Assembly (NCBI GenBank): GCA_903832205.1
Contig: CAILAH010000059.1
Coordinates: 1 to 42,136, forward strand
Direction: 5' to 3'
DNA from: an uncultured Microcaldota archaeon
Lineage (GTDB): Archaea > Micrarchaeota > Micrarchaeia > CAILAH01
Length of the DNA stretch: 42,136 nucleotides
Under the pieces are notes generated by a model that searched no databases, had not been told where the DNA came from, and saw only the letters and a program-made list of their open reading frames with translations. Made by a program: the position numbers and the translations under genes. Positions 4,710 to 39,756 of this stretch are shown here, in pieces. Numbering within the stretch: position 1 is the stretch's first letter; each line of letters begins with the position of its first letter.

Positions 4710-4803
4710 GCTTCTTTTTCCCAAATTCTACGTTCTTGTGCAGGAAGATGCAACTTGACATAGAGATTTAATGATTATACTGAAACTATATGCGGTAACC
4801 CAC

Positions 4804-6120
4804 ATGCGAATCGACAGATTTTACTTCATCGTTTTCTTGGTTTTAGGAGCTTTGTTATTCGGATGCACTCAGCCAACTTACAAAGGTTGTGCATATGATA
4901 ATCCAACTTGTGGCCAGGATCATTTATGTACAAATAATACCTGTGTTCTTAGGCAAGGCTGCCAGTATGCCAATCCTTCTTGTTCTCCAGGTTATGATTG
5001 CATTTCCAATGACTGTGTCTTAAGTGAAAGGGATCCGCTAAATAAAATCAACTCATTGTTTAACCAGGCAGATTATTCCCAACAAGGCTTCATGTATTAT
5101 GCCGCCGATTTATACAAGGAAGGCCTTTTCCCTTCCCTGCCGTATTTGACCCCGATAAAGAACCAGGGCAATAGAGGCAATTGTTGGGCATTTACCCAAG
5201 TGGCCGCTGCTGAAATATTTTCACTTAACAGGCCAGACCTATCGGAACAAAATTATGTTTTCTGGAGATATGCCACAGGACGGCCCGCACCAGAATTAGG
5301 AGTGCCCATTGGCCTTGAAAGCGAATGGCCTTACAATCCTGCTCTTTGTAAGGCTCCCCCCTATTACGAAGGAAATTCCCAGATGGGCGAATATGTTGTT
5401 TCAGGCCAAACCTTTCCCTGTGGCCTGCCGGATGTTCCCAGCCCGTCCTGGACTGATGGGAAACACAGCAGCGTAAGTGGGAATACTGTCACCTACACGG
5501 GTGGAGGGATTCCCAGCGGAACAATGGGGGATGGCCAAGGAATCATTGTTGATGATACCACAATCCAATCATATGTGCCAATTAATAGCAAGTTCGGAAG
5601 ATGCATGATTGGCCAATCACTAAATATAGACCATCCAACCGACAAAGATATGGAGAAAATAATTACCCTCCTTATTGACCTTAGGTATCTGGTCGGGGTC
5701 GATATTTACAATATGAACGAAATATCTCCTCAAGGGTTTGTTCACGGCGGCATTACGGAATCAAGCCAACACGAGGTTCTCCTGATTGGATTCGTGCCTA
5801 ATGCAAAAGTACCGAATGAAGTTAAACAAAACCCATACTATAGCAGCGGCGAAGTAGGATATTTCATAGCCAAAAACTCAGCGACAACAGGCAGTGGAGA
5901 TTATGGATTTATTTATTTCCCCTATTCGTGGCTTAAGGCCAACATGTGGAGTGCCAGTGAATACAGATATGATGTTAATTCAACAATTTATCAAGATTGC
6001 CCTAAAAGGCCAGATGCAGGTGTTCCAACAGATATTCCTGTGGGCGATTCACCATGTAAATCTGGATTTGACTGTTATACCAATCAATTATGCAATAATG
6101 GCTTTTGCCAGAATTCATAA
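4804..6120 (+). CDS. papain-like (C1 family) cysteine peptidase lipoprotein with N-terminal Cys-rich modules
   Basis: LFGC lipobox; PIKNQGNRGNCWAFT (active-site Cys), HEVLLIGF (His), YFIAKNSATT (Asn). Confidence 0.85.
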   Translation: MRIDRFYFIVFLVLGALLFGCTQPTYKGCAYDNPTCGQDHLCTNNTCVLRQGCQYANPSCSPGYDCISNDCVLSERDPLNKINSLFNQADYSQQGFMYYAADLYKEGLFPSLPYLTPIKNQGNRGNCWAFTQVAAAEIFSLNRPDLSEQNYVFWRYATGRPAPELGVPIGLESEWPYNPALCKAPPYYEGNSQMGEYVVSGQTFPCGLPDVPSPSWTDGKHSSVSGNTVTYTGGGIPSGTMGDGQGIIVDDTTIQSYVPINSKFGRCMIGQSLNIDHPTDKDMEKIITLLIDLRYLVGVDIYNMNEISPQGFVHGGITESSQHEVLLIGFVPNAKVPNEVKQNPYYSSGEVGYFIAKNSATTGSGDYGFIYFPYSWLKANMWSASEYRYDVNSTIYQDCPKRPDAGVPTDIPVGDSPCKSGFDCYTNQLCNNGFCQNS

Positions 6121-11296: not shown

Positions 11297-12957
11297 AGGG
11301 GAATAAACGCGGAAAGCTCTCATACAAAGTCGCAAAACTCCTTAAATCCCTGCCGGAAGCGAAAGTTACATCCGTCAAATACTTCCCTGAAAACACATTA
11401 TATACGGACATCTATTCGTCATCTTTCAAGACCGCGGACATGCGCGCGGTGCTTGACCCTGACAGCGTGGTTGTGATTGGGGCATCGAGAAATCCCACGA
11501 AGGTCGGGCATGCAATGCTCAAGAATTTGATAACTGGCGGCTACAGCGGGAAATTGTTTGCTGTGAACCCGAACGCCGACAGCATACTTGGCGTGAAATG
11601 CTACAAGAGCATCACCGCCATACCGCAAAAGATTGACTGCGCAATGATTGCGGTCCCCGCTGAGGATGTCAATCAGGTAATGGAGGAGTGCGGAAAGAAA
11701 GGAGTGAAGGGCGCGATTATAATTTCCGGCGGGTTCAAGGAAATCGGCGAGTGGGAACGCGAGAACAAGCTCGCAGAAATAAGCAGGAAGTATGGCATCG
11801 CGGTAATCGGCCCCAACTGCCTCGGCATCGTGAACATGAAGAAGCATATTGACTGCATATTCCTGCCCACCTATAAGATGAAGAGGCCCAACTTCGGGAA
11901 AATCAGCTTCATTACGCAGAGCGGTGCGGTGGGCTCGACCATTCTTGATTTGGTCGGAGAGTCCAACATTGGCGTTTCAAAATTCATTTCATACGGCAAC
12001 GCGGCCGTGCTCGATGAGAGCGACCTGCTGCGCTATTTGCGCGAGGATGAGGACACCGCAGTGATTGTGATTTACATTGAGGGCGTAAAGAACGGCAGGA
12101 TATTTTACGAGGAGCTCAGGAAGACGTGCGCGGTGAAGCCGGTGGTGGTGCTCAAGGCAGGCAAGGGCACGCTCGCGGCGGGCGCTGCCAAGTCGCACAC
12201 CGGGGCGCTTGCGGGCGATTACAAGGTGTTCCAGTCCATGCTCAGGCAGGCCGGCGCGGTTGAGGCGGAAAACCTTCCTGAATTGTTCAACCTCTCAAAA
12301 ATATTCCTGCAGCCCCTGCCAAAAGGGGATAGGATATTCGTGCTCACAAACGGCGGCGGGGACGGAGTGCTCGCCGTTGACGCAATTGAGAAGAACGGCC
12401 TGAGGCTCGCCGAGATAAGCGCGAAGATGAGGGCGAAGCTGAAAAAAGTGCTGCCATCGCACGTGGTTGTCGGGAATCCGTTCGACCTAACGGGTGATGC
12501 CGACAGCAAAAGATATGGCATGGCGCTAAACGAGATAGTGAATGAGGAGGGCGTTGATGCCATCATTGCGATTACGCTTTTCCAGACCGCCGGGCTTGGT
12601 TCCGAAGTGGTGAACACGGTGATTGATGCGGACATCAAGACCGATAAGACCATTGTGTCCGTGGCAACGGGCGGGGATTACACGCGCCTGCTGCTTGGAA
12701 TAATAGAGTCTTCGGGCGTGCCTGCCTACGGCTCGCCGAGCGAAGCGGTGGATTCAATCGCCAAGGCGCTCTGGTACTACAAGAAGCGGGAGAAGAACGT
12801 CGCTGAAAACGAGGCAAAGGACCAGCAGCATCTGTCTGCGGCACTTGGCAAGGCGCTGGAGCGCGGGCCGGAAAAGCAAAATGCGCCTGCTTCTGTGCAG
12901 GCGAATGTGCTGCGCACGGGCGCGAATGCCCTGCCGCCAAAGGCCCGCCATAAGTGA
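11293..12957 (+). CDS. ADP-forming acyl/acetyl-CoA synthetase, alpha subunit
   Basis: VVVIGASRNPTKVGHAMLKNL, GPNCLGIVN, KSHTGALAGD, TNGGGDGVLAVDA; ATGA overlap with beta subunit; alternative start 11440. Confidence 0.9.
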   Translation: MKGNKRGKLSYKVAKLLKSLPEAKVTSVKYFPENTLYTDIYSSSFKTADMRAVLDPDSVVVIGASRNPTKVGHAMLKNLITGGYSGKLFAVNPNADSILGVKCYKSITAIPQKIDCAMIAVPAEDVNQVMEECGKKGVKGAIIISGGFKEIGEWERENKLAEISRKYGIAVIGPNCLGIVNMKKHIDCIFLPTYKMKRPNFGKISFITQSGAVGSTILDLVGESNIGVSKFISYGNAAVLDESDLLRYLREDEDTAVIVIYIEGVKNGRIFYEELRKTCAVKPVVVLKAGKGTLAAGAAKSHTGALAGDYKVFQSMLRQAGAVEAENLPELFNLSKIFLQPLPKGDRIFVLTNGGGDGVLAVDAIEKNGLRLAEISAKMRAKLKKVLPSHVVVGNPFDLTGDADSKRYGMALNEIVNEEGVDAIIAITLFQTAGLGSEVVNTVIDADIKTDKTIVSVATGGDYTRLLLGIIESSGVPAYGSPSEAVDSIAKALWYYKKREKNVAENEAKDQQHLSAALGKALERGPEKQNAPASVQANVLRTGANALPPKARHK

Positions 12958-13886
12958 GCATTATGCTTTTACAACTACAGCTCAGCAGCCTCTTGCTGCT
13001 TTTTCTACTTTACCTAAACATCAAGGTCATACGCAGGTATCTGGCCACTGACAACACCAATTATGTGATACTGGTTGCGGTGCTGCTTTTTGCGTTCTTC
13101 AATTTCTGGCTCACTACCTACAGTGAGATTCTTGGAAAATTCCAGGAGCAGTTCACCATCATCATGAATCTCCTTCCCATAATAATCATCATTGCAATCG
13201 TGTGGCTTGAAGGCAGGAGAAAAAAGGAGGAGCGCGAAAAGCTCAAGACGAGGGAGTTCTTCTCCAAGTATGTTTCAGAGAAGATTGTGAATTCATTGTT
13301 GAAGGAAAAGAAGTTGGAGCTGGGCGGCAAGAAGGTGCCGGTGACTGCATTGTTCACTGATGTGCGCGGGTTCACGGCCATGTCCGAAAAGCTTGACCCG
13401 AAGCAGGTGGTCGATGTGCTGAACGGGCATTTCGATATCATTAACGAGGAGATGTTCAGGGAAGACGGCACGGTGCTCAAGTACATCGGCGATTCCGCAA
13501 TGGCGGTGTTCAATGCGCCAGTGCTGCAGGAGGACCATGCGGTGAGGGCGGTGCGCGCGTGCGTCAATACGCAAAAGAGGATGCTTGCATATTCGGCCGA
13601 AGCTAAGATAAAATTCGGCGTTGATTTCACAATCGGGATCGGGGTCAACACGGGCGAGGCGGTCGTAGGAAACATCGGCTCCCACAGGTATATGGATTAC
13701 ACCATCATCGGCGATGCGGTTAATACGGCCGCAAGGCTGAACGGGCAGGCAAAGGCGGGTGAGGTCGTGATAAGCGACAGCACCCATGAGCTTGTGAAGG
13801 ATAAGTTCAGGTTCTCCGAGCCCGAAGCGGTGATGGTGAAGGGGAAGGCGCAGCCCGTAAAGATTTACAGGGTGTTATACGAGTGA
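12954..13886 (+). CDS. membrane-anchored class III adenylate/guanylate cyclase
   Basis: FTDVRGFT, LKYIGDSAMAVF, YTIIGDAVNTAARL; two N-terminal TM segments; GTGA overlap with upstream stop (alternative ATG 12963). Confidence 0.92.
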   Translation: MSIMLLQLQLSSLLLLFLLYLNIKVIRRYLATDNTNYVILVAVLLFAFFNFWLTTYSEILGKFQEQFTIIMNLLPIIIIIAIVWLEGRRKKEEREKLKTREFFSKYVSEKIVNSLLKEKKLELGGKKVPVTALFTDVRGFTAMSEKLDPKQVVDVLNGHFDIINEEMFREDGTVLKYIGDSAMAVFNAPVLQEDHAVRAVRACVNTQKRMLAYSAEAKIKFGVDFTIGIGVNTGEAVVGNIGSHRYMDYTIIGDAVNTAARLNGQAKAGEVVISDSTHELVKDKFRFSEPEAVMVKGKAQPVKIYRVLYE

Positions 13887-21968: not shown

Positions 21969-24872
21969 CTATTTCTTCAGCGGCTCCGGCTCGGGCTTAA
22001 ACTCGGCGGTGTTTTTCCCAAACTCCATGCCCACTGCATTATTCTTATCGTCAAACTTGAATGAAACAACATGTATGGAGATATCGTCGTTGGGGGCATA
22101 GGTTGTCCTTTTAATAGAATTGGCAACTGCATACCCCATGCCGTTCTTCTCCTTTCCGGTGCTACACGCAATGAGGCCAATAAATCCGCCTTTCTTGACT
22201 GGTTCTGCCTTTCCAATCTCATCAAGAAGCAGCTGGTGATACTCGGCCGTGAGCTTGCTCTTGAAGTAGGGCACCTCATCAATCACGTGGTCGCCGAAAT
22301 CAATTTCCGTTGGTGTCCCATGGCCCGCAAATACAAGGAAATCCGCCTGCCCGTGCCTCATCCTGAACTGCTTGAGAAAATCCGTGATGCTCTGCACGCT
22401 CTGCGTTTCGAAAACATAAATGTCGTAGCCATTATGGGACAGCGCAACAAAATTTTCGTAGAAAAGATGGAAAGTGCCCGACGTGTCATTCTTGTTGAGT
22501 ACGAAAATTGCCCTCTTTGCGGTGCTGTCTGCGGAGGCAGTTGCCGAACTTTGATTGGGGACTTCCACACTCATGTCCTCATTGGCAAGGAAGGGCAGCC
22601 TGGCCAGGACGGAGGGCGGATATCTCTTGAAATATTCTATATCGAACGTCTGGCCGATATTGGAAATCTGCTGCGGGGTAAGAAACACCAGCGCATAGGG
22701 CAGGTTTTCGAACGCCTCAAAGGCAAGGGCAATATTCTTTCCATGCGAGAGCAATTTATTGTATTTGGGCGAAATGTAAAGGAGTGATTCATATAGCTGG
22801 GTCTTGCCCACTTCACTTAAAAATTTACGCAAATCTTTTTTCCCATCCAGCTCCCAGAGAAAATTCTCCCTGTCCTTCATCGACTCGTTTCTTAATATTT
22901 TTATTATAACATTGGCGATGGACTTGATTACCTTGCCATCCTGGGTTCGCGCGGACTCTGCCAGGTCTATAATTAATGACGCCCTGAAGGCAGGATTATT
23001 GCTCATCACATACTGCTCCAAATCTGCTTCGTCAATCTTATCAAAAATAAGGTAGGCGAGCTTATCCAATTCCTCCATAGGTATCTGGATCATAGATATG
23101 GCAAGCGTCATTTCTGCTGATAGCCTGCGGTTTCCCCATTTGATGAGCAACTCTTTTTTATCCGCAAGCGGTGCATCTTTGAATATTTCAAAGAATTTTT
23201 CTTCCGATATGCTGTCCATGCTTATAACATTATAAAATATCAAATCCCGTATGCCTTCTTCATCGGTGTTTTTAAGCAGGTAATTCATGTCCAGGCCTGA
23301 AAGCTCCCCTAGCTCTTTTTTGAATTCTTTGAGAATGAATTGCCTTAGCCCGTTTATGCCATTATTACCGTGCGCATAGGCCATTGCAATGAAATGCGTA
23401 GGTGGCAAATCTTCACACTTTGGAATTTTAATGGCCGGATATCTTGCAATTCGGGCCATTATCATCGTGGCAGTATTATAATCCTGTGCCGATATGAGTC
23501 CACGAAGGTAAGCGGATAAATCCTCCGAACATGAATATGAAAGCGCTATCCTTGTACGAATTATGAATTGTTTGGCAAGGTTTTTCCTTGTTTCACTCTT
23601 AAACGTTTGCTTGAAAAGGGCTTTCCAATCCATTTCTGAAAGGTCGGATTTGGAAGTGAGTGCTGCCATATATTTGGGATTCATGGAGAGCAGGATGCCA
23701 CGCGTTATTGGCATGTTTATTGCAACTAAAACGTCATCCGCCTGTCCCAAGTCGAAGTCGTTGAGCTTATCGACAAAGGCTGAAAATGTCAGCCCTTGGC
23801 CAGCAAGCTTTGCCAGCCTGTCGCGGCTATTCTCTTTCATCATCTGTGCTAAAACCGAGCCCTCAACAAGGGGAATTTCCCCGTTATTGCCCGTGCATTT
23901 CTTGCTATAGGATTCGGCACTTTTTGAATGGAGAGGATAATTTGCACAGGCAAATGAGATGCCTCCCGTTTGTGTCCACGTGTTAAGCGCGTCCTGTTCT
24001 GCAGGGGTCCTGGATACACTAATGCCAAACTCATCCGTATGCACCCTTTTCAATAGGGTTCCCCAATCCCTGCTGTAGGCCTCCACAAACTGGACAAGAG
24101 ACGCGTAGGTGTTTATATCACCATAAACCTCACTGCGCTTGAGAAGCTCTGAAATCACGTTATGGAATAGGGCTTCCGAAAATCTCGGCATTGACGTCTC
24201 TAATTTTTTGCCATTGTACATCTCTTTTGTGCAAGCCCAGTTGGAGCCGGACATGTCAAGAATTATTTTTGATGCCGCCAGGGTGTCAACAAAGAAATTC
24301 AGGGAGGAAGTATCGGCGTTGCGTATGAACTCCCTTATTGAATCGCCAAATTGCTCTTCCGGTTTTATACAGCCGGCAAGCACCTTAATTATTGCGAATT
24401 CCAAATCGTCCGCGCGCCCGAGCCCGAGGGCTTGGGGCACCATGTAGAGAATGTGGGACAGGGAGCTGTCCGTACCTTCAGATTTTGACTTCGCGATTGC
24501 GTCCCTTACATTATGGGAGCGCTTCTTGTAAAGTGCCAATTCGGCATCGTCATTTTCGTTTATTTTAATCTTGTAATTTTGGTCAGGAAATGCGGAAAAA
24601 TTCGCCAGGAGATGGCGATTTTTCAACACCACAAATTCAGTTTCGGCTTTGTACTTTTTGTAATTATACTCTTCTGTGCAATTGACATATCGGCCTTCCA
24701 CCAATATGGGATCCAGCCGGAGAATTCTCCCTTCCGTTGCACAGGCTGAAACGGCCAGGCCGCCCGCAACAATGAGCGGGAGCACCTTCCTTGAAAACCA
24801 GCTTTGCTTTTTCTTTCTGCTTTCGCCGTTTGGAACCTCTTCAATGCGGCCATGCCTTGTGAGGGACCTCAT
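21969..24872 (-). CDS. 967-aa lipoprotein with helical-repeat body and C-terminal putative clan-CD (caspase-like) peptidase domain
   Basis: LAVSACATEG lipobox; C-terminal ADFLVFAGHGTP and GGFIGLIACSTGKE (HG...AC dyad pattern). Confidence 0.65.
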   Translation of the reverse strand: MRSLTRHGRIEEVPNGESRKKKQSWFSRKVLPLIVAGGLAVSACATEGRILRLDPILVEGRYVNCTEEYNYKKYKAETEFVVLKNRHLLANFSAFPDQNYKIKINENDDAELALYKKRSHNVRDAIAKSKSEGTDSSLSHILYMVPQALGLGRADDLEFAIIKVLAGCIKPEEQFGDSIREFIRNADTSSLNFFVDTLAASKIILDMSGSNWACTKEMYNGKKLETSMPRFSEALFHNVISELLKRSEVYGDINTYASLVQFVEAYSRDWGTLLKRVHTDEFGISVSRTPAEQDALNTWTQTGGISFACANYPLHSKSAESYSKKCTGNNGEIPLVEGSVLAQMMKENSRDRLAKLAGQGLTFSAFVDKLNDFDLGQADDVLVAINMPITRGILLSMNPKYMAALTSKSDLSEMDWKALFKQTFKSETRKNLAKQFIIRTRIALSYSCSEDLSAYLRGLISAQDYNTATMIMARIARYPAIKIPKCEDLPPTHFIAMAYAHGNNGINGLRQFILKEFKKELGELSGLDMNYLLKNTDEEGIRDLIFYNVISMDSISEEKFFEIFKDAPLADKKELLIKWGNRRLSAEMTLAISMIQIPMEELDKLAYLIFDKIDEADLEQYVMSNNPAFRASLIIDLAESARTQDGKVIKSIANVIIKILRNESMKDRENFLWELDGKKDLRKFLSEVGKTQLYESLLYISPKYNKLLSHGKNIALAFEAFENLPYALVFLTPQQISNIGQTFDIEYFKRYPPSVLARLPFLANEDMSVEVPNQSSATASADSTAKRAIFVLNKNDTSGTFHLFYENFVALSHNGYDIYVFETQSVQSITDFLKQFRMRHGQADFLVFAGHGTPTEIDFGDHVIDEVPYFKSKLTAEYHQLLLDEIGKAEPVKKGGFIGLIACSTGKEKNGMGYAVANSIKRTTYAPNDDISIHVVSFKFDDKNNAVGMEFGKNTAEFKPEPEPLKK

Positions 24873-24925: not shown

Positions 24926-25735
24926 CTACTGTGCCCTGCTAATCTCAATTTTTATGGGATACTTGCCGCCCGTTGAAAGGATTATAGAGGTGCCATTATC
25001 AAGGATTTCAAAGTTGTTGAACTCGGGGCGCGAGGCGAAGAGCAGTGGCTCCCTACCGCCGTCAATCTTCTTTGCCTTGAACATCTTTGAGAGGGGGCGC
25101 TCCATCACGCCGCTGTGCTTCTTGCGGCTTGAATTTGCTATCGCATAATGCACGCCGTGGCGCTTGCCCAAATAGATCGCAACGTGGCCGTACTTCTCCT
25201 TTGGCGTGGGGCTCGCAACCTCACCGAGAACCTGCCGGTGGAATATCAAATCCCCGATGTTTTCATCGCCAAGCGAGCGGATAAGCTCGGGCTTGCGCTT
25301 TTTTTCTATCACCATTTTTGTGGAATTCCACTGCCCATAGGTGGTCTTGCCAATGTCCGCTGCAACTTTGTAGTTGGTATCAGGGTCAACTTGGGCAAGC
25401 ACTGAAAGGAACTGTATGGAGATTGCGCGGTTGTACGCCTCATAGGTGAATAGCGCGCAGTCCCACTCGCCCAGCTTGTATTTGCGCTTGTGGTTCTCCA
25501 CCATGAGGCGCTCCGCCTCAGCAACGATTGCCTTTGATGCGCTCTCGCGGTTACGCCATCTTGCAATGAATAGCTTGGATGAAACTTCTGCGATCATATG
25601 GAGGTCTTGTCTTATTGCAGCTGCCTGTGCCCCTGTAAAACTTGCAGCTGGCTTGAAAACGGATGCCTGGGCATATGCCGGCTCAAGAAGGAGGAGCGGT
25701 AGCGCGGCTGCGAGCAGGTGGCGATACATTTTCAT
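24926..25735 (-). CDS. secreted NlpC/P60-like cysteine peptidase
   Basis: signal peptide MKMYRHLLAAALPLLLLEPAYAQA; GEWDCALFTYEAY, GDLIFH, YGHVAIYLGK..HYAIANSS. Confidence 0.72.
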   Translation of the reverse strand: MKMYRHLLAAALPLLLLEPAYAQASVFKPAASFTGAQAAAIRQDLHMIAEVSSKLFIARWRNRESASKAIVAEAERLMVENHKRKYKLGEWDCALFTYEAYNRAISIQFLSVLAQVDPDTNYKVAADIGKTTYGQWNSTKMVIEKKRKPELIRSLGDENIGDLIFHRQVLGEVASPTPKEKYGHVAIYLGKRHGVHYAIANSSRKKHSGVMERPLSKMFKAKKIDGGREPLLFASRPEFNNFEILDNGTSIILSTGGKYPIKIEISRAQ

Positions 25736-25860
25736 TCGGTTCTTTCTCTTGCTGGCCCTAACCTGTTCGCAAGTATTTTCGCCTGTAGCCTTGCCTACAC
25801 ATGACTGCATGCATTATCTCTGTCTGTTCCGTTTAAAAAATGTTTCGCAAATACCTCTCC

Positions 25861-26870: not shown

Positions 26871-27515
26871 ATGAAATATGAGATATTGATTCTGTCTCTG
26901 GTTGCCCTGGTTCTGCTTGCAGGATGCACGCAGCCAACGCAGCCACAGATGGTCGGAAACGACACGGATGCTCACGGATGCAAGGCGTCCGCAGGCTACT
27001 CGTGGTGCGCAGAGCTCAACAAGTGCATAAGGCCTTGGGAGGAGAACTGCACGACGGCAGTGATGCCGGGAAGCGACCGTGATGAGCACGGATGCATACC
27101 TTCGGCAGGCTACCAGTGGTGCGAATCGTCGCAGAAGTGCTACAGGTCTTTCGAAGAGAACTGCACTGAGCTTCTTGTCGGAAACGACAGTGATGAGCAC
27201 GGGTGCAAGGCATCTGCAGGATACACCTGGTGCGAGAACAAGCAGAAATGCATAAGGTCCTGGGAAGAGAACTGCACTAGCAGTGCGCTCGAGCCAAAGG
27301 CAAGGGAATTCTGCGGCCAGGAGAACATTGCGGCTGTCTTTGTGTGCGGGCCGAACATCAGGACGGTGACCAAGCTTATAGGGGGCGGCTCAACAATCTA
27401 TGACGCGGATGGCAAGGAACTTGCCAAGTGCCCTGTCGTTGCGCCAAGCGCAATGAGCCCGCAGTGCCAGATGTTCATCCTCGGCAACAACTGTGTTGAG
27501 GAGCAGGTCTGTTAG
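26871..27515 (+). CDS. lipoprotein with three tandem Cys-containing repeats
   Basis: LLAGC lipobox; three copies of G(N/S)D.D.HGC..SAGY.WC....KC.R..EENCT. Confidence 0.8.
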   Translation: MKYEILILSLVALVLLAGCTQPTQPQMVGNDTDAHGCKASAGYSWCAELNKCIRPWEENCTTAVMPGSDRDEHGCIPSAGYQWCESSQKCYRSFEENCTELLVGNDSDEHGCKASAGYTWCENKQKCIRSWEENCTSSALEPKAREFCGQENIAAVFVCGPNIRTVTKLIGGGSTIYDADGKELAKCPVVAPSAMSPQCQMFILGNNCVEEQVC

Positions 27516-38352: not shown

Positions 38353-39756
38353 TTAGTTGCAGGCGCCGTCCTGGCAGTAGTGGCCGTAGCCGCAGTCAAC
38401 GGTGATTGACCCTATGCCGCTCTGGAGGCAGTAGTACTCCTCTACGCTGCTTGCAGTATAGCAGGAGTCATATATTGGCTGGCCGCCCGTCAGCTGCACA
38501 TATCCTCTTGTGTGGATATCCTGGCCGTTGTCGGATTCTGTGCATCCCACCTCTTTTATGCACGCGCCGTTGTTGCAGTAGTAGCCGGAGGCGCAGTCCA
38601 GGTCTACGTGAGCCATGTTGCTGCTGGAAGTGCAGTAGTAGTCCCTCACCGTGTAATTGTCCACACAGGTGTCCGCCTGCTTCTGCGTCCCAACGGTCAC
38701 CGTGCCGCGCTTTAATTTGTCCACCGTGTTCTCGTCATCCGTGCAGGTGGGGTTTGTAAGTGGCACGCACGCGCCGTTAAGGCAGGTGTACTTGGAGGGG
38801 CACTGGATGCGTTCCGAAAGCACTTCGTTGTTCTCACAGTAGTACTCGTTCACAAAGTTCAGGTCGTAGCAGGTGTCGGTGTTCTCGTTGCGCCCCTTGC
38901 TCACCACTCCCTTCACTGACGTGTCCTTGCCGTTGTCGGAGTCGCTGCACTGCGGAAGCGTGCACGCGCCATCATGACAGGAGTAGCCCTGCGGGCAATA
39001 GGTCGTCTTATTCATTATTGTGTTGCTCTCACAGTAGAAGTCAGTTACCCTTTCAACATCGACGCAGTAGTCGGACATTATGGCTGCGCCCTTGGTTGCG
39101 GTGTCCTTCTTGTTGATGTTGTATTTGGTCGTCTCAACGGTTGAGCTGCAGGATTCAATACATGCGCCATCGCTGCACGCAGAGCCGGTGCCGCACTGGA
39201 TATCTTTGGTTGCAATGTTCCCGCTGGAATCGCAGTAGTATTCAATCAGTGTTGAGCTGTCCCTGCAGGAATCGGTAGATGTAGTTCCCGCCTTTGTGGT
39301 TGTGCCTTTCACTGAAGATGACTGACCACCATCGGAATCCGAGCAGGTGGGCTGCACACACACACCACTCTCGCAGTAGTAGTTCTGCGGGCATGCCACG
39401 GTTTCGCTTTTCATTCCGCCCGCCGCGCAGTAGTATTCAACCACGGATGCGCCTGAGCAGGTATCTGCATATGCCGTGGTGCCTGATGTGACCGTGCCTT
39501 TCTCAAGGACGTTGTTGCCGCTGTCACTGTCGCTGCAGGTAGGAATGGCGCATTCTCCCTGGGAGGAAACGCTGACTCCAGCAACCTGCGCGAAGCACGG
39601 GTTCGAATAGGTCTTGCCATCGCTCCCGCAAACGGGGGCATACTGCTCGCTGCAAAATGACGGGGTCGTGCAGCCGAAAAGGAACAGGATTCCTAATGCA
39701 AGCATAATAGGCATGAGCTTCATGTGGAAAGCTTGGCATGCAAAAAATAAAAGCAA
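38353..39756 (-). CDS. lipoprotein with Kazal-like domain and about six Cys-rich repeats
   Basis: LFLFGC lipobox; CSEQYAPVCGSDGKTYSNPCFAQVAGVSVSSQGEC; repeats of C(S/T)DSD.G.....KG....D.C.....V.EYYC......C..GY.C..GAC. Confidence 0.82.
   Translation of the reverse strand: MLLFFACQAFHMKLMPIMLALGILFLFGCTTPSFCSEQYAPVCGSDGKTYSNPCFAQVAGVSVSSQGECAIPTCSDSDSGNNVLEKGTVTSGTTAYADTCSGASVVEYYCAAGGMKSETVACPQNYYCESGVCVQPTCSDSDGGQSSSVKGTTTKAGTTSTDSCRDSSTLIEYYCDSSGNIATKDIQCGTGSACSDGACIESCSSTVETTKYNINKKDTATKGAAIMSDYCVDVERVTDFYCESNTIMNKTTYCPQGYSCHDGACTLPQCSDSDNGKDTSVKGVVSKGRNENTDTCYDLNFVNEYYCENNEVLSERIQCPSKYTCLNGACVPLTNPTCTDDENTVDKLKRGTVTVGTQKQADTCVDNYTVRDYYCTSSSNMAHVDLDCASGYYCNNGACIKEVGCTESDNGQDIHTRGYVQLTGGQPIYDSCYTASSVEEYYCLQSGIGSITVDCGYGHYCQDGACN

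Follow-up and report, generated by a model that had tools for sequence, protein, structure and literature searches.

The locus and its predicted protein

The window, meaning the whole stretch of 42,136 nucleotides analyzed here, contains an ORF of 967 amino acids at positions 21969–24872, which proved to be a real reading frame and lies on the minus strand, a detail that the sequence-only reading did not give. It encodes a putative lipoprotein with a C-terminal caspase-like domain. The archaeal origin supposed for the DNA is borne out both by archaeal MCM and aIF5B-type genes on the same contig and by the named relatives of the protein from our scan, which are Candidatus Micrarchaeota.

Residues 1–44 (24741–24872, minus strand) comprise, from sequence and hydropathy, a basic N-region, a hydrophobic stretch with a hydropathy of 2.48 over 12 residues, which is among the highest of 40 family members, and a lipobox, V41-S-A-C44, matching [LVI][ASTVI][GAS]C. 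The lipobox claimed earlier is thus present, and it is the one feature that speaks for the surface tethering also claimed, suggesting a surface lipoprotein whose export is plausible and whose processing and lipid attachment are predicted. Lipobox proteins have been described from haloarchaea (PMC2945643).

Residues 45–722 (22707–24740, minus strand) form a region predicted at low confidence to be helical. In the full-length model the first ∼720 residues are helical with pLDDT mostly 30–60, the best-modelled part being around residues 530–690 (pLDDT about 50–80). This region had been described as both helical and repeat-like, and only the former holds, at that low confidence: local self-alignments of residues 45–720 score no higher than shuffles, and the same test found a relative with Pfam HEAT/ARM repeats, L049, to be strongly repetitive. 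There is no relative of the first 720 residues among the family members, and the fold search with the full-length model returned no usable match for this part. Neither a TPR nor a SAVED domain was matched in the protein by Pfam or PADLOC, the N-terminal fold model being too uncertain to judge.

Elsewhere in the window, a papain-family cysteine protease (Peptidase_C1, E 1.1e-5) with the lipobox LLFGCTQP is encoded at 4771–6120 (plus strand), and its product is a putative second surface cysteine protease on the contig. The product of the gene at 38353–39756 (minus strand) is a lipoprotein rich in Cys, in which several Cys-rich units recur alongside a Kazal-type protease-inhibitor domain (E 1.8e-7). 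Another lipobox protein, encoded at 26871–27515 (plus strand), repeats a unit of the form HGCxxSAGYxWCExxxKCxRxxEENCT three times. The class III adenylate/guanylate cyclase domain encoded at 12954–13886 (plus strand; PF00211, E 6e-30) is unexpected in a small DPANN genome.

The C-terminal caspase-like domain

Residues 723–967 (21972–22706, minus strand) are the conserved family domain according to the family alignment, with a predicted fold core at ∼785–962. The two motifs quoted from the sequence beforehand are present: FLVFAGHGTP, where the predicted catalytic His851 (22320–22322, minus strand; motif GHG) follows directly on a strand at 843–849, and FIGLIACSTG, where the predicted nucleophile Cys903 (22164–22166, minus strand; motif ACSTG) lies just past a strand at 892–901, both as placed by alignment and model. 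The pattern of six hydrophobic residues and HG, then 30–90 residues, then six hydrophobic residues and C-x-[TSA]-G turns up a single time among the 129 window frames of at least 100 amino acids, and none of 5000 shuffled versions of the 967-aa frame contains it.

Searched by itself against Pfam, NCBIfam, PADLOC and PDB sequences, the protein gave chance matches or none. When 97 related genomes were searched with the whole protein, there were eight matching places, in seven of the genomes, all only over about residues 664–958, and the alignment of these relatives (A2) has 15 invariant columns, including the His and Gly of the first motif and the Cys, Thr and Gly of the second. AlphaFold2 run on A2 modelled the C-terminal 245 residues as a caspase-haemoglobinase domain (pLDDT 78.5, pTM 0.80). 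With this model the only Foldseek match below 1e-3 was 9qpe_G (E 1.4e-4), followed by CED-3 and caspase-11, interspersed with dehydrogenases of similar E-values. VIA-align separated the two clearly, all 50 of the 50 matches listed being clan CD proteins; the best among them was 9qpe (Z 12.0, 3.1 A, 149 residues), and a SAVED-CHAT protein scored Z 11.8 (3.7 A, 158 residues), a C11 peptidase Z 10.0, and legumain and caspases 8.5–9.3. Residues 781–963 of the full-length model gave the same outcome (Z 13.2 and 12.9). In a search of PDB sequences with the A2 profile, the CHAT protein 8tl0 ranked first (E 0.059) and the DUF4347 protein 9qpe third (E 0.19), matches that are weak alone; in both alignments HG falls on HG and C on C.

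The structure 9qpe is that of Tce1 (PA0256), a putative cysteine protease effector of a Pseudomonas T6SS with a DUF4347 domain and a putative catalytic dyad of His186/Cys240 (PMC13323088). In the profile alignment His851 and Cys903 fall on these two residues, the numbering of 9qpe being counted from residue 110. The likeness is limited to the domain, however, since Tce1 is an injected effector of 310 residues that lacks a lipobox, has no more than a short domain at its N-terminus and shares 11–14% identity with the window protein. The SAVED-CHAT and TPR-CHAT proteins of type III CRISPR systems (PDB 8tl0) resemble it both in the domain (VIA-align Z 11.8–13.2) and in layout, with a C-terminal caspase-like domain behind a sensing or helical part, but a SAVED or TPR domain was not detected in the window protein with Pfam or PADLOC. 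Metacaspases and orthocaspases (Peptidase C14) have the clan CD fold and His-Cys dyad in common with the window protein, but its sequence falls below the cut-off for that family, and C11 and C13 peptidases (clostripain-like 6n9j and legumain) share the fold (Z 9–10) but not the flanking architecture or any sequence-level match.

The clan CD interpretation offered from the motifs is therefore supported by the predicted caspase-haemoglobinase alpha/beta fold, with the conserved His-Gly after one core strand and the Cys after the next, and we regard the modelled fold with its His851/Cys903 dyad as solid. The domain is predicted to be catalytically competent, and would act as an endopeptidase through this dyad. 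A further conserved residue, Asp796 (22485–22487, minus strand), stands after the first strand in an N-x-x-D-x-N-G-x-F motif, and this Asp is kept in 56 of 59 family domains. In metacaspases an acidic residue in the specificity pocket favours basic substrates, and by that likeness Asp796 could, as a guess on our part, sit in such a pocket and have the same effect.

A divergent family in Micrarchaeota

With the A2 profile, ∼66 occurrences of the domain were found, spread over 39 of the 301 Micrarchaeota genomes searched, the class and phylum searches covering the same 301. Conservation of His and Cys in homologues had been set beforehand as a test of the clan CD interpretation, and both residues are present in 59/59 distinct domains (the Gly after His in 57, Thr in 51 and the last Gly in 52), a count that is somewhat biased in that the collecting profile rewards these columns, with most scores far exceeding the contribution of two residues. 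A clan CD domain may lack proteolytic activity or need a trigger to act, and as the fold alone proves no function and proteolysis is a prediction here, the domain might be a catalytically dead module for binding or assembly. The invariance of both residues while most other positions vary makes this very improbable.

Four relatives pass the Pfam cut-off for DUF4347 (PF14252), to which six of nine family members show weak matches, and the window protein, which falls below that curated cut-off, passes no Pfam, NCBIfam or PADLOC model; this places it in a divergent clan CD/DUF4347-like branch. For CHAT (PF12770) there was no match to the window protein and one among nine members (E 0.17), and for Peptidase_C14/metacaspase (PF00656) the score was 15.6 bits vs a cut-off of 21.4. 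The branch leading to the window protein on the domain tree is long, and the row closest to it is L035 at 33%. Its host genome encodes a second family member, which has no export signal (L047, on contig C57 of G000; the window contig is C59), and some relatives carry up to nine copies per genome.

The expectation that such a protein would be unusual in archaea holds in one respect, canonical C14 domains being rare in the class (2/296 genomes), but not for the divergent family, given its presence in 39 of 301 Micrarchaeota genomes. A survey in 2012 covered 114 archaeal genomes and listed caspase homologues in 5, each of these from Euryarchaeota (PMC3501461). A pattern scan with subset A3 matched only Micrarchaeota, with two narrow patterns that give no gauge of absence elsewhere, and single-protein scans of genome contigs and viral contigs found no match. 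The literature search returned no account of the family, of its occurrence in Micrarchaeota or of its layout; whilst the fold and chemistry are already known, the family appears to be previously unrecorded, as far as that search reached.

Genomic context and turnover

Adjacent upstream of the caspase-like gene, across a gap of 53 bp, lies a gene for a secreted-looking NlpC/P60-like protein of 294 residues (24926–25810, minus strand; NLPC_P60 E 4e-4, below the Pfam cut-off), and co-transcription of the two is possible. The only congener, G001, whose genome is 64% complete, keeps the order of TruB, cytidylyltransferase/MazG, glycosyltransferase and NlpC/P60-like genes at 51–77% identity, and the 967-aa gene is absent exactly between the last two, in a contiguous stretch. 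The gene was thus gained or lost recently, and the family profile found no match elsewhere in this 64% complete genome. The NlpC/P60-like protein was considered as an obligate partner and rejected, being present in only 3/296 genomes and in a congener without the caspase-like gene.

Turnover is also seen in G043, where eight copies form one clade (SH-aLRT 99) and seven of them lie head to tail on one strand (L048:5232-19569). These seven share about 50–63% identity in their C-terminal domains. A conserved neighbour or operon partner of family members was looked for and none was found. In two genomes, related proteins of about 220–235 residues directly follow family members (L052:6661-7314 and L053:13414-14115), and these are a possible partner in that subgroup. 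One gene away from another member, a secreted-looking protein of 766 residues (L014:10264-12564, plus strand) has thrombospondin type 3 repeats and the motifs GNHGAEDG and SHCYSG, possibly marking another clan CD domain (C13-like, E 0.065).

Architecture, export and function

The family domain is usually C-terminal and preceded by about 200–1100 residues, with some very long members continuing past it. In one protein of 2183 residues (L053:6866-13414, plus strand) it is accompanied by a GHKL/HATPase_c domain (E 6.8e-11), and L049 has HEAT/ARM repeats above the Pfam cut-off. In pairwise comparison of 40 members, similarity was found between C-terminal domains in 718/780 pairs vs 68/780 for the N-terminal parts, and within the G043 group identity is about 48–63% between the former and about 26–41% between the latter. 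A retained protease joined to a changeable N-terminal part is what would be expected of proteases that recognise other cells, hosts or invaders, and we consider it somewhat probable that the window protein is a modular surface-tethered caspase-like protease, whose conserved C-terminal protease domain stands behind a helical recognition region that varies.

An obvious export signal is found in only four of the 40 members (the window protein, L060, L030 and L044), which are scattered on the domain tree and need four changes to explain, most branches of that tree being weakly supported. The remaining members, about 36 of 40, have no obvious export signal and most look cytosolic, which means that the function common to the family cannot be one at the surface.

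The papain-like lipoprotein encoded on the same contig (4771–6120) indicates that surface proteolysis may be part of the physiology of this cell, and a housekeeping or nutritional surface protease would fit with that, one that obtains peptides by digesting proteins of the environment or of a host and has its helical part as a spacer. Such a role is improbable in view of the patchy distribution of the family, the absence of the gene at the congener's syntenic site, the much greater divergence of the N-terminal part compared with the protease, and the mostly cytosolic nature of the family.

The main rival explanation is a sensor-effector protease that works inside the cell, as those of the TPR-CHAT or SAVED-CHAT kind do. 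Its N-terminal part would sense stress or an invader and free the caspase-like domain to attack proteins of the cell itself; the copy in the window would then be a membrane-anchored version exposed to the cytosol, or one whose hydrophobic N-terminus is no more than an anchor. SAVED-CHAT is among the closest structures, most members have no export signal, and a variable N-terminal part, a conserved effector, tandem expansion, the fusion to a GHKL ATPase in L053 and the HEAT/ARM repeats of relatives all agree with it. The lipobox of the window protein argues against it, as do the missing PADLOC match, the lack of recurrent partner genes and the failure to find the family on phages, plasmids or viral contigs. 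This explanation suits most of the family better than it suits the window member, for which we rate it as possible but doubtful.

If the window protein is a surface-tethered modular protease, it would be anchored in the membrane through its lipobox, and its C-terminal clan CD cysteine peptidase would be catalytically competent, most likely using the His851/Cys903 dyad to cleave proteins on the cell surface or beyond it. The helical N-terminal part of 720 residues would bind a partner or substrate and control access or activation, and the family would keep the protease domain while the recognition part is exchanged or evolves fast. Such proteins may serve in conflict between cells or in encounters with hosts or invaders.

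Proteases of the caspase type are drivers of immunity and cell death, both in eukaryotes and in many bacteria. A bolder suggestion, which we put forward with considerable reserve, is that a lineage-specific set of caspase-like receptors, multiplied in tandem and pairing a conserved protease with helical recognition parts that diversify fast, acts as an innate immune or conflict system in Micrarchaeota cells with genomes of ∼1 Mb, with some of them, including the window copy, redirected to the surface against hosts or competitors. The variability and tandem expansion of this caspase-like family suggest that these tiny symbiont-type archaea use proteases in conflict or in the control of a host, and the family offers a concrete and testable set of genes for the dealings of Micrarchaeota with hosts, rivals or viruses.
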